Below, piece by piece: positions 41,839 through 46,383 of a stretch of 64,000 bases of DNA (position 1 is the stretch's first letter; each line of letters begins with the position of its first letter). The position numbers were made by a program, and so were the translations under genes. The notes under the pieces are model-generated. The model was not told the DNA's origin. It saw only the letters and a program-made list of their open reading frames with translations, and did no database searches. Source of the stretch: Alphaproteobacteria bacterium (GTDB lineage: Bacteria; Pseudomonadota; Alphaproteobacteria; RF32; CAG-239); contig JAGBLF010000013.1 in NCBI GenBank assembly GCA_017635595.1, forward strand, positions 1 through 64,000. The letters are read 5' to 3'.

Positions 41839-42471
41839 TTATTTTTTCTTATTTAGAGCCGAAGTTTTTTCGTTAAACCATTGCATACGACACAGAAAAC
41901 GATGTAACGTTATTCTTTGAACGCCTATAATTCGGGCAATCTGATTTTTAGAAGTACCTTCATTCAATAACTGTCTAATTTTTTTTATGTTTTTTGACAG
42001 TTTCAATTTTTTTGTTTCTGCACCATAAGGGCGACCGAGCTTTTTCCCTTTGGCTTTTAGGTTTTCTAGTGAGCTTTTGGTACGTTGCGATATTAAATTA
42101 CGCTCTATCTGGGCAGATAGTCCGAAGGCAAAAGCCAGCACCTGAGATTGAATATCGTTTCCGAGATGATAATTTTCTTTAATTGTGATAACCTGACAAT
42201 TTTTGCTTAAACAGGTTTGTAATATCGCCATAACTTCAAGCAACGAGCGACCGAGACGAGAAATTTCCGTGGCAATCAATATATCATTGTTTTTCAGTTG
42301 TTCTAACAATATTCCCAGTTTTCTGTTTTTTAGCGCTTTCCTTGAAGAGATTGTTTCTTCAATCCACTTATCAATTTTGAAATTGTGTGTTTTAGCGTAT
42401 TCTGCGATCTCTCGTTCCATAGCATCATATGATTGTTTATGTGTGCTGACACGTATATATCCGTAAATCAT
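41839..42471 (-). CDS. serine site-specific recombinase, DNA invertase type
   Basis: 210 aa from ATG 42471, with GGAAC before it. Resolvase/invertase domain: Ser9 nucleophile in IYGYIRVSTHKQ, arginine-rich active site (ISRLGRSLLEV), and the dimer helix with AQIERNLISQRTK; then GKKLGRPYGAETKK and a C-terminal helix-turn-helix (EGTSKNQIARIIGVQRITLHRFL). Its layout matches Hin/Gin and, from memory, the Mpi-type master invertase of gut Bacteroidales. A perfect 17-bp inverted repeat lies 72 bp upstream, just before a surface-glycan operon, so it most likely inverts that segment. It is orientated away from glf. Confidence 0.88.
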   Translation of the reverse strand: MIYGYIRVSTHKQSYDAMEREIAEYAKTHNFKIDKWIEETISSRKALKNRKLGILLEQLKNNDILIATEISRLGRSLLEVMAILQTCLSKNCQVITIKENYHLGNDIQSQVLAFAFGLSAQIERNLISQRTKSSLENLKAKGKKLGRPYGAETKKLKLSKNIKKIRQLLNEGTSKNQIARIIGVQRITLHRFLCRMQWFNEKTSALNKKK

Positions 42472-42542
42472 TTTAATAGTTCCTTTTTTATGTATTTTTT
42501 TTGTTAAATTCAACAAGTTATATACCTAAAAATTGGGCAGAT

Positions 42543-42559
42543 TAAATGAACGTTTATGT
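42543..42559 (+). repeat. left inverted repeat (IRL)
   Basis: 17 bp, TAAATGAACGTTTATGT, exact reverse complement of 42691-42707. Confidence 0.9.
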
Positions 42560-42608
42560 CAATACCTTATACAAAATTTTTATAAGTATTTTAAGGTCAA
42601 TGCTTATT

Positions 42609-42636
42609 TTTATAACTTATTCAAATATGTCGTAAA
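42609..42636 (-). promoter_or_regulatory. candidate promoter inside the invertible segment
   Basis: On the minus strand TTTACG (42636-42631), 16 bp, TATAAA (42614-42609). It points to the invertase, away from glf, in this orientation. A second -35-like TTGACC lies further left without a well-spaced -10. Confidence 0.4.
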
Positions 42637-42690
42637 TATTTTGTTTTGTGTGTTCATAAATAAATTTTATTTAGCATGTTTTCACAGCAT

Positions 42691-42707
42691 ACATAAACGT
42701 TCATTTA
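42691..42707 (-). repeat. right inverted repeat (IRR)
   Basis: 17 bp, ACATAAACGTTCATTTA on the plus strand, exact reverse complement of 42543-42559. It lies 80 bp before the glf start. Confidence 0.9.
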
Positions 42708-42786
42708 TGTTCATATAACACAGTTAATTAGTGTATAAATAAAAATAATGCAATTTATTGTATGTAGACAGGGAGCTGTAGAGTAT

Positions 42787-43911
42787 ATGAAAACAAATCT
42801 GGTTGTTGGGTGCGGATTATCCGGTATAACGATGGCGCATCGTCTGGCTGATGAGCTGAATGAAGAAGTTGTCATTATTGATACAAAAAGTCATATCGGT
42901 GGAACTTGCTATGATTATAAAGATGAAAACGGTATAACGGTTCATAAATACGGACCACATATATTCAGAACAAATTCAACGGAAATATGGGATTTTTTAT
43001 CGCAATTTACAGAGTGGTATCCTTTTATGCATCACGTATTGGGTGTAATAGATGGTATAGAAGTTCCGATTCCGTTTAATATCAATTCAATGCATAAAGT
43101 TTTTCCGAAACAATTGGCAGAAAAATTGGAAACGAAGCTCATTCAGCAATTTGGTTATAATAAAAAAGTTCCGATTTTGGAGTTGCGAAAAACCGATGAC
43201 GAAGATTTACAATTTTTAGCAGAGTACATTTATCAAAAAGTGTTCTTGGGATATACGATTAAGCAATGGAATTTTACGCCGGAGCAGTTGGATCCTTCCG
43301 TGACAGGTTCTGTTCCGGTATACATAAGCCGAGATGACAGATATTTTCAGGAAAAATACCAAGGCATTCCGCTTAACGGCTATACAAAAATGTTTGAAAA
43401 TATGCTGAAACACCCGAATATTAAGGTTAGGTTAAATACAGCGTATACGGATGTAAAGGACATTAAATCGTATAATCGAATTTTTTATACCGGAGCCATT
43501 GAAGAGTTCTTTAATTATAAGTATGGCAAACTCCCGTACAGAAGCTTGGATATCCGTATAAAAACATTTAATACTGAAAAATTTCAGAATGCACCGGTTG
43601 TTAATTATCCTGAAAATTATGATTTTACGCGTATTGCCGAGTATAAATATTTTTTGAATGAAAAATCAGATAAAACAGTTTTATCTTTTGAATATCCGCA
43701 GGATTATGAATTAGGCAAAAATGATCGGATTTACCCAATATTGAATCCCCAAAATCAAGCGATTTATAATCGTTATTTGCAAGAAGCCGAACATATGCCG
43801 AATGTCTTTTTCTTAGGCCGCTTGGGGGCTTATCGCTATTATGATATGAATCGTACAATAGCTGCTGTGTTTGAGTTGTTTAATAAAATAAAAGGAAAGG
43901 TAAATGGATAA
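42787..43911 (+). CDS. glf: UDP-galactopyranose mutase
   Basis: 374 aa, flavoprotein. It makes UDP-galactofuranose from UDP-galactopyranose for surface glycans. FAD loop GCGLSG (8-13), IGGTCYDYKDE, KYGPHIFRTN, LGYTIKQWNF-type middle (VFLGYTIKQW), ISRDDRYFQEKYQGIPL and FLGRLGAYRYYDMN are all conserved. ATG 42787 (MKTNLVVGCG) is chosen over an upstream in-frame ATG at 42748. It is first in a three-gene overlapping operon directly behind the invertible segment. Confidence 0.95.
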   Translation: MKTNLVVGCGLSGITMAHRLADELNEEVVIIDTKSHIGGTCYDYKDENGITVHKYGPHIFRTNSTEIWDFLSQFTEWYPFMHHVLGVIDGIEVPIPFNINSMHKVFPKQLAEKLETKLIQQFGYNKKVPILELRKTDDEDLQFLAEYIYQKVFLGYTIKQWNFTPEQLDPSVTGSVPVYISRDDRYFQEKYQGIPLNGYTKMFENMLKHPNIKVRLNTAYTDVKDIKSYNRIFYTGAIEEFFNYKYGKLPYRSLDIRIKTFNTEKFQNAPVVNYPENYDFTRIAEYKYFLNEKSDKTVLSFEYPQDYELGKNDRIYPILNPQNQAIYNRYLQEAEHMPNVFFLGRLGAYRYYDMNRTIAAVFELFNKIKGKVNG

Positions 43912-45253
43912 AAAAAATATCCTTGTAATAGCTCAAGCTGACTTAATTAATACAGTTGGCGGAGCTATGACAATTTTTAATCATCTTTGCAATTTTTTAT
44001 GTAAAAATAACTATAATGTCAAAGCTGTATGTTTTAATTCTGAAAATATAACGGACAGACCGAAAGCTTTGGATAAAAATGTCGAATATGTCAATTTGTA
44101 TTTGATTAATCAAGAATCGTATTCGGCGGCAATAAATGCTTATTTGGAAAAGAATAAAGCTGATTTGCTAATTTTTTTCTTTCCGATTTTTTATGTCGAA
44201 GCCGAATTATCGAAAAAATTTAACAAAATTCCGCGTATATTAATGTTACACAGCAGGCCCGATTGGTATTTTCAGGATAAAACAATATTGGATAAAATGA
44301 AATCGGCGTGGACAAAGAATTCGGTCGCTCAGATATTATTTCCATCATACTATCGGTTGGTTCCCGATTTTATGAAAAAAGTGACGTGTATCGCAAATTA
44401 CGTCACAAAATCAGCAGATACCGTAACTGATGTACAGTGCCGTAAAAAAATCGTATATTTATCTAAAATCGACAGATACAAAGGATTACAGTTTTTACTT
44501 AAATCCATGCAAATTGTCGCAAAACAACATCCTGACTGGATTTTAGATATATATGGGCAATCAGTACCTAAAGACTATGCGGGTAAATTGCAAAAATTAG
44601 CTAAAGATTTAAAAATATCCGGACAAGTCCATTTTAAAGGAATAACGGCAAACTCCTGTAAAACACTATTGGAATATGATATCGGGGTGTTTCCGTCATT
44701 TTTTGAAGGATTTAGTATCGGTTTGAGCGAAATGCTGAGTGTCGGCTTGCCGACTGTCGGATTGCAGGGAGCAAGCGGGGTAAATGAATTAATCATCGAC
44801 GGCTATAATGGTTATCTGACGGCGGATAATCCGGTAGCATACGCTGCAAAAATCATGGAACTTATCGAAAATCAGGAACAGCGCAAAATCATGAGCCGCA
44901 ATGCAGTTGCATCGATGGATCGTTTTACTGAAGAAAATTTCAATAACCAATGGCTGAATTTGATTAATGATGTTTTGCATGACAAATACAAAAATCCGCA
45001 AATTAGTACTTGCATCGAAAAGTATCCGTTGTTTAGTCTCGAAAAAATCAATAAATCGCATAAATGGCTTGATTTTTTTCATAAGAAGACCATCAGACTG
45101 TTTGATTTTATTCCCGTGTTTTCCAAAACAACTTTCGGCGGACGGAAAACCTATGAAATTTTCAAGATTCCGGTCTGGAAAACCAGACATATGTCCGATC
45201 GGGTAAAATACTATTTTCTTAATATTTTGTTACTGGAGATAATTAAAAAATGA
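43904..45253 (+). CDS. glycosyltransferase family 4
   Basis: 449 aa, GT-B fold. Acceptor-side NTVGGAMTIFNHLCN, donor-side IVYLSKIDRYKGLQFLLKSM, and the catalytic FFEGFSIGLSEMLSVGLP with G-ASGVNELI. A likely galactofuranosyl or other surface-glycan transferase, given glf. The last 60 residues carry a short motif (RKTYEIFKIPVWKTRH, KYYFLNILLLEI) shared with the next gene and with the broken licD. It overlaps glf by 8 bp. Confidence 0.88.
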   Translation: MDKKNILVIAQADLINTVGGAMTIFNHLCNFLCKNNYNVKAVCFNSENITDRPKALDKNVEYVNLYLINQESYSAAINAYLEKNKADLLIFFFPIFYVEAELSKKFNKIPRILMLHSRPDWYFQDKTILDKMKSAWTKNSVAQILFPSYYRLVPDFMKKVTCIANYVTKSADTVTDVQCRKKIVYLSKIDRYKGLQFLLKSMQIVAKQHPDWILDIYGQSVPKDYAGKLQKLAKDLKISGQVHFKGITANSCKTLLEYDIGVFPSFFEGFSIGLSEMLSVGLPTVGLQGASGVNELIIDGYNGYLTADNPVAYAAKIMELIENQEQRKIMSRNAVASMDRFTEENFNNQWLNLINDVLHDKYKNPQISTCIEKYPLFSLEKINKSHKWLDFFHKKTIRLFDFIPVFSKTTFGGRKTYEIFKIPVWKTRHMSDRVKYYFLNILLLEIIKK

Positions 45254-46383
45254 AAAAACAACCAAAAGTGTCGGTAATCTTACCGATTTATAATGCTGAA
45301 AAATATCTGCATGAATGTTTGGACAGCATTGTCAATCAAACTTTGAAAGACATCGAAATTATTTGTGTAAACGATGGCTCAAAAGATAAATCTCTGGATA
45401 TTATTAAAGAATATGCCGCAAGAGACAAGCGAGTAAAATACATAGATAAGCCGAACGGAGGCTACGGGCATACAATGAATCGCGGTATTGAAGCGGCAAC
45501 CGGTAAGTATTTCGGCATCGTCGAACCGGATGACTATATAAAACCGGAAATGTATGAAATATTGTATAAGAAAGCCGAAAAATTTGATTTAGATATCGTT
45601 AAAAGTAATTTATCATGTTTTTACGGAGATGAAAACAGAATTTATTCGACTATCAAGTATATGAAAAAAGAGGGGTATGATCTGGTTGACAGTCCGATTG
45701 TTCTGCAAAATTATATGATACACTCTTATTTTACTACAACGGGGATTTATAAAACCGAATTTGTGAAAAAAAATCATATTTGTTATAACGAAACACCGGG
45801 AGCAGCTTATCAAGATACATCTTTTTGGTTTTTTACACACTGTTTGGCAGAAAAAATTTGTGTGTTGGACCAGGAATTCTATTGTTACCGGCAAGATAAC
45901 CCGAATCAGTCAGTGCAGAACCCGAGGCAAGTTAATGCTTTATTATATGAATATAAAACCATTTATGAGTTTTTGAAACAGCATCAATTAAAGAAATTTA
46001 TCCCTTTATATTTTTATCGTAAATTTCTGGGCTTGAGGTGGTACTGGAGAATGCAAAAAGGCAAAGCTCGCAAGCAATATTTAAAAATAATGAAAGCTTC
46101 GTTTGCCGAAGACAGCAAAAATAAAACGGAAAATTTTGAGTTATTTACTCCGAAGGAAAAAACAGAGTATCATAATATTATCAAATACGGTGAGGCCTCG
46201 GTTAAGATATTTGCCTGCAAATTGTTCGGTATTTTCCCGATGTGCGGCTACAAAATAATCGGCGGTAAAAAGGTTTATTCGCTGTTGGGTGTACCGTTAT
46301 TGAAAATCCGGCGGATGGCAAACGGTTTTACAACCAAGTATTATTTTTGCGGACTTCCTTTTTTGAAAATAACCGATAAGTAG
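45250..46383 (+). CDS. glycosyltransferase family 2
   Basis: 377 aa, GT-A fold: KVSVILPIYNAEKYLHECL, donor site VNDGSKDKSLDII, NGGYGHTMNRGIEAA, DxD VEPDDYIKPEM, and the base region GAAYQDTSFWF. The C-terminal 50 residues hold two copies of a short motif (KKVYSLLGVPLLKIRR and KYYFCGLPFLKI). It starts 4 bp inside the end of the previous gene and completes the glf operon. It ends 7 bp before a convergent protease gene. Confidence 0.9.
   Translation: MKKQPKVSVILPIYNAEKYLHECLDSIVNQTLKDIEIICVNDGSKDKSLDIIKEYAARDKRVKYIDKPNGGYGHTMNRGIEAATGKYFGIVEPDDYIKPEMYEILYKKAEKFDLDIVKSNLSCFYGDENRIYSTIKYMKKEGYDLVDSPIVLQNYMIHSYFTTTGIYKTEFVKKNHICYNETPGAAYQDTSFWFFTHCLAEKICVLDQEFYCYRQDNPNQSVQNPRQVNALLYEYKTIYEFLKQHQLKKFIPLYFYRKFLGLRWYWRMQKGKARKQYLKIMKASFAEDSKNKTENFELFTPKEKTEYHNIIKYGEASVKIFACKLFGIFPMCGYKIIGGKKVYSLLGVPLLKIRRMANGFTTKYYFCGLPFLKITDK

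Follow-up and report, generated by a model that had tools for sequence, protein, structure and literature searches.

The window, a 64 kb stretch of alphaproteobacterial DNA, contains a serine recombinase gene and a three-gene glycan operon that diverge from either side of a short AT-rich intergenic region. The features of this locus are:

41839–42471, minus strand: serine recombinase of approximately 210 amino acids with Resolvase and HTH_7 domains, divergent from glf; motifs YIRVST and SRLGRS intact
42543–42707, no strand: predicted invertible segment (165 bp with its two arms, 21% GC), recognised from the arms and from inverted homologous segments in relatives
42543–42559, no strand: recombinase-proximal arm and putative crossover site, TAAATGAACGTTTATGT, the exact reverse complement of ACATAAACGTTCATTTA
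42549–42562, minus strand: conserved unit TTGACATAAACGTT, with a −35-like TTGACA at 42557–42562 at a constant offset from the site core, recognised from clade-A conservation
42691–42707, no strand: operon-side arm and putative crossover site, ACATAAACGTTCATTTA, the exact reverse complement of TAAATGAACGTTTATGT
42711–42719, plus strand: putative −10 region of a glf promoter, in the flank on the operon side, usable only after inversion; weak here, with a significant family-level signal
42788–43911, plus strand: glf, UDP-galactopyranose mutase (domain match to PF03275)
43904–45253, plus strand: glycosyltransferase, group 1 family, GT4-type (domain match to PF00534)
45250–46383, plus strand: glycosyltransferase family 2, GT2-type (domain match to PF00535)

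The recombinase starts with an ATG at 42471, 71 bp from the nearer arm; an open reading frame taken from a TTG start would begin at 42516. The protein matches Resolvase (PF00239, 7e-31) and HTH_7 (PF02796, 2e-6), and has the Ser and Arg catalytic motifs and C-terminal HTH of the small serine invertase family. No second copy of the recombinase was found in the focal genome. On the other side, the family-consistent start of glf is the ATG at 42788, which is preceded by AGGGAG and lies 80 bp from the right arm, and the operon genes overlap by 8 bp (glf and the GT4-type gene) and 4 bp (the GT4-type and GT2-type genes). This is the layout given in the preliminary description, which had placed a serine recombinase just left of perfect 17-bp inverted arms around AT-rich non-coding DNA, and glf with two overlapping glycosyltransferases to their right; all three elements were recovered at the same positions, and the recombinase is intact.

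The arms enclose 131 bp of AT-rich non-coding DNA, and the GC content of the 165-bp segment with its arms (21%) compares with 40% for the window. No other perfect inverted repeat in the 64 kb window reaches 17 bp with a gap of 30–300 bp, and 40 windows simulated with matched local dinucleotide composition contained none. Read on the minus strand, the recombinase-proximal arm is a near-dyad about a central TT (ACG-TT-CAT). With zero mismatches, the arm core ATRAACGTTYAT has just two occurrences in the 1.50 Mb genome, the focal arms themselves; this search was for perfect arm motifs in a 96% complete draft, which could miss some sites, and looser sites are possible. A 20-mer of the segment used as query also matched a viral contig, with only 22 bp in common, and this match was rejected as chance.

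The presence of glf makes a surface glycan containing galactofuranose a plausible product of the operon. A second glf lies elsewhere in the focal genome (G000:C1:61426-62022), so a switch at this locus need not govern all galactofuranose. At E 1e-60, this glycosyltransferase operon was recovered from none of the other 25 genomes in the genus, which left no orthologous glf locus for comparison.

Of 152 genomes in the family, 126 carry relatives of the recombinase, with up to 12 per genome. Those with names come mainly from metagenome-assembled Alphaproteobacteria, many of ruminant gut source. Across the class, a search at E 1e-30 gave matches in just 5 of 115 genomes, including the focal genome and one family member. 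In a tree rooted on Hin/Gin, which sit on a long branch, and including no sequence named Mpi, the focal protein is nested among alphaproteobacterial family members; its sister, L067 (84% identity), precedes a different gene than glf. Homologues from Bacteroidota, Verrucomicrobiota and gut phages are placed apart from it. The preliminary description had suggested acquisition from Bacteroidales. As a recent event this was rejected on the tree, since the focal protein groups with its alphaproteobacterial family, in which 15 of 16 genera are positive.

For comparison of the recombinase loci, 100 were fetched, of which 96 had sufficient upstream sequence. A divergent gene lies across the gap in 81 of the 96, its start 169–462 bp from the recombinase start and mostly at 215–290 bp. 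Many relatives have arms of other sequence in a similar place, approximately 55–90 bp upstream of the recombinase gene and approximately 100–165 bp apart, and in many others the arm scan gave no long arms. The focal arms are longer than those of most relatives. Among homologues from other lineages (Bacteroidota, Verrucomicrobiota, phages and other alphaproteobacteria), no clear arms were seen upstream except in L181 and L064.

Because the sites of most relatives are short, scans for long arms missed them, and homologous segments were therefore compared directly. L125 and L126 are colinear on both flanks (1.6 kb at 88%), and the segment between them, −239 to −83, aligns inverted at 94.9%. The segment of L082 is inverted relative to that of L084 (98.5% over 130 bp) and that of L085 (99.2% over 125 bp), with recombinase and proximal site in the same order and orientation (96–97%); here the comparison gives orientation relative to the recombinase only, because the far flanks come from different operons or, in L084, are missing. 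L128 and L130 provide a more diverged case of opposite segment orientation. Contig ends were also unevenly placed: within 250 bp of 95 recombinases there were 8 upstream and 1 downstream, in a count that excludes further recombinase copies starting less than 250 bp from a contig end, which for that reason had not been fetched. Several of the upstream ends fall at 71–98 or 178–196 bp, where the sites lie, a pattern to be expected if assemblies break where the orientation is mixed.

Inversion within the family is well supported, because the segment runs in opposite directions in sister loci. The focal locus has the layout of an invertible element, a stretch of intergenic DNA that is bounded by inverted repeats and precedes a gene, and its segment is very probably invertible as well. 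The proposal in the preliminary description of an invertible promoter and phase variation is supported by the homologous loci in opposite orientation, the conserved position of arms and divergent gene, and the contig-end pile-up. It is very improbable that the enzyme is instead a resolvase or mobile-element recombinase, with the inverted repeat serving as a binding or regulatory site and no inversion taking place. Small serine recombinases do include resolvases, Tn3 and gamma-delta being among the matches to the focal protein, and in relatives the module stands before operons of widely differing kinds, as though it had moved; yet sister genomes carry homologous segments both ways round, the sites are inverted rather than direct, and the open reading frame list has no transposase adjoining the module.

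In a separate group of loci, L133 and L137 (also L142, L153 and L163) have nearly the same recombinase and differ by approximately 1 kb starting at the proximal site. Positions −147 to −109 of one match −1199 to −1161 of the other, as would follow from insertion of a gene-sized piece at the site or from a more extensive rearrangement there.

A plain sigma-70 promoter scan of the focal segment in either orientation gave nothing above shuffled sequence. In clade A, to which the focal locus belongs, the unit TTGA[ACT][ATC]N4CGTT occurs at one segment end in 28 of 60 loci, where 0.5 would be expected, pointing toward the recombinase in 25 and toward the operon in 3; the strict unit is absent from about half of these loci. 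If the unit is a −35, its place at the segment end requires that the −10 sit in the flank. Scored at 16–18 bp spacing, the operon-side (distal) flank of clade-A loci has a mean −10 score of 2.32 against a null of 0.12 (sd 0.44; 0 of 2000 shuffles), and the recombinase-side (proximal) flank −0.13 (p 0.69), although such shuffle tests overstate independence and significance because the loci are related. The −10 sequences in the operon-side flanks include TATAGT, TATCAT, TATCGT, TACACT and TACAAT. A promoter split across the crossover site is thus statistically supported in clade-A relatives, with the site core falling in the promoter spacer because the −35 lies in the segment end and the −10 in the operon-side flank. 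The unit TTGAYWN4CGTT could also be in part a recombinase half-site.

Clade B, the other large clade, differs. In L125 and L126 a complete TTGCAA-18-TATAAT lies inside the segment, directed toward the operon in L125 and toward the recombinase in L126. A promoter directed at the gene in just one orientation is indicated statistically in clade A and by sequence in this pair, and weakly at the focal locus. The focal segment might likewise, as in Bacteroides and the clade-B relatives, hold a whole promoter that drives the recombinase one way round and the operon the other. Two candidates, TTTACG-16-TATAAA and TTAAAA-17-TATAAG, both at present directed toward the recombinase, could serve. However, they score no better than shuffles of this very AT-rich segment, and the element conserved in clade A is at the segment end with its −10 in the flank; we regard an internal promoter as rather doubtful.

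A split promoter at the focal locus stands at about even chances. It is only plausible here because the −10 that inversion would bring into use is weak: either TCATAT at 42711–42716, with a spacer of 17 (TTGACA-17-TCATAT; 3/6 matches), or TATAAC at 42714–42719, with a spacer of 20 (TTGACA-20-TATAAC). The unit TTGACATAAACGTT faces the recombinase in the assembly, and for this reason the assembled locus would, by the split-promoter model, be OFF, glf being turned on by inversion.

For the focal locus we infer that inversion takes place and a promoter is active, and that the product is a phase-variable surface glycan, perhaps with galactofuranose. The locus would act as a phase-variation module in cis beside the glf operon. 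The serine recombinase would bind both arms, synapse them and invert the 165-bp segment, which has a −35 fused to the crossover site at one end; the matching −10 would lie in the operon-side flank. In the ON orientation the −35 and −10 halves would join across the site and the operon would be transcribed, and in the OFF orientation the −35 would face the recombinase side, with no −10 at the right spacing, leaving the operon silent. That the segment controls the glf operon is likely, and the whole explanation, a cis-acting module switching the operon by a split promoter, we consider probable. The switch could also be a locked or decayed one, an ancestral invertible element that has lost flipping at this locus. 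The single recombinase copy of the focal genome, against up to 12 in relatives, and the weak focal −10 would fit such decay, but the perfectly matched 17-bp arms, longer than in most relatives, and the intact recombinase reading frame make it improbable. The split-promoter layout would be compact, with the crossover site doubling as promoter spacer, and, if true, would give a simple rule for calling ON and OFF states from an assembly.

Several known systems resemble this one. Mpi of Bacteroides fragilis is the product of a single gene and acts on many dispersed promoters, among them those of capsule loci. The preliminary description gives ARACGTWCGT as the consensus of its sites, against which the focal arm has AAACGTTCAT, one base off; the literature search did not turn up this consensus. 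Shared with Mpi are a serine invertase with short dyad sites, intergenic promoter segments that invert (predicted at the focal locus) and glycan operons among the targets. In contrast to Mpi, the focal enzyme adjoins a segment of its own, with no other perfect site found in the 96% complete draft genome; most copies among its relatives also adjoin their own segment, the promoter of the focal clade appears to be split across the crossover site, and the host is an alphaproteobacterium. The description of the enzyme as Mpi-like stands in so far as it is nearer to homologues from Bacteroidota (45–55% identity; approximately 45–56% when Verrucomicrobiota and gut-phage homologues are included) than to Mu Gin (28%), and does not stand as regards its position in the tree, apart from Bacteroidota recombinases, or further perfect sites in the genome, of which none were found. 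Hin of Salmonella and Gin of phage Mu are further serine invertases whose genes adjoin the inverted sites. In the Hin system the promoter is contained entirely in the segment, and in the Gin system the ends of coding sequences are inverted. Close sequence kinship with Hin/Gin is not apparent at 28–30% identity and with a long branch in the tree, the focal recombinase being only 28% identical to Gin.

Serine invertases with short dyad sites and invertible intergenic promoters are a general picture (PMC10939037, PMC11892184). The PhaseFinder invertons (Jiang et al. 2019) are intergenic invertible segments at surface and regulatory genes of gut bacteria, and the passages on them in PMC11868660 and PMC11892184 describe the promoter as embedded in the segment, whereas that of the focal clade appears split across the crossover site. 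A literature search found no alphaproteobacterial case of an invertible promoter; the preliminary description likewise knew of none in this lineage. We place the locus among invertible promoters, a known general class, and regard the architecture in its clade as a variant.

The first genes across the segments of relatives encode autotransporters, ankyrin proteins, EcoRI-like, C5 and type III methyltransferases, type ISP enzymes, BrxA and SLOG-domain proteins. Among the genes that come later are those for type I specificity subunits as well as sugar-nucleotide and glycosyltransferase operons. The focal glf operon would fit with the glycan group of switched loci. Comparison of approximately 100 related loci suggests on/off inversion switches across the family, many of them apparently joining or separating promoter halves. 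Restriction-modification or defence genes lie behind predicted invertible segments in L083, L106, L132, L135, L161 and others, and phase-variable defence in the family is possible.

At seven loci the first gene across the segment is a recombinase paralogue without the catalytic Ser/Arg motifs and with the C-terminal HTH region kept (dead paralogue):

L159:2376-2963, plus strand
L130:2263-2904, plus strand
L140:3630-4214, minus strand
L143:3667-4260, minus strand
L149:2287-2871, plus strand
L129:3631-4152, minus strand
L144:3612-4187, minus strand

Examples of the motif changes are YIRVST to YIKNSE and SRLGRS to SSLGAS. Glycan genes follow the dead paralogue in several loci. A search of the family found it in 14 of 128 genomes and 3 genera, and at no fewer than 6 loci its neighbour is an active recombinase.

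We tentatively propose, as something that may well not hold in full, that self-contained cassettes of recombinase, segment and any operon serve the whole of this family of small-genome gut Alphaproteobacteria as a genome-wide switchboard that assembles and splits promoters at the crossover site, and that at some glycan loci a dead recombinase copy, the first switched gene and with its DNA-binding domain kept, may lock or cross-regulate switches. If so, phase variation by DNA inversion would be a family-wide trait of these reduced-genome gut Alphaproteobacteria, extending to restriction-modification, surface and glycan genes.

In L140 the active recombinase and the dead paralogue are divergent around one segment, with start codons 263 bp apart. 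L193, L194 and L195 have a dead paralogue with inverted arms TTCAAAAACCACCATTT, approximately 131 bp apart, immediately before it, upstream of 1501; as the arms are present and the fetched flank has no recombinase, an enzyme encoded elsewhere may act on them in trans.
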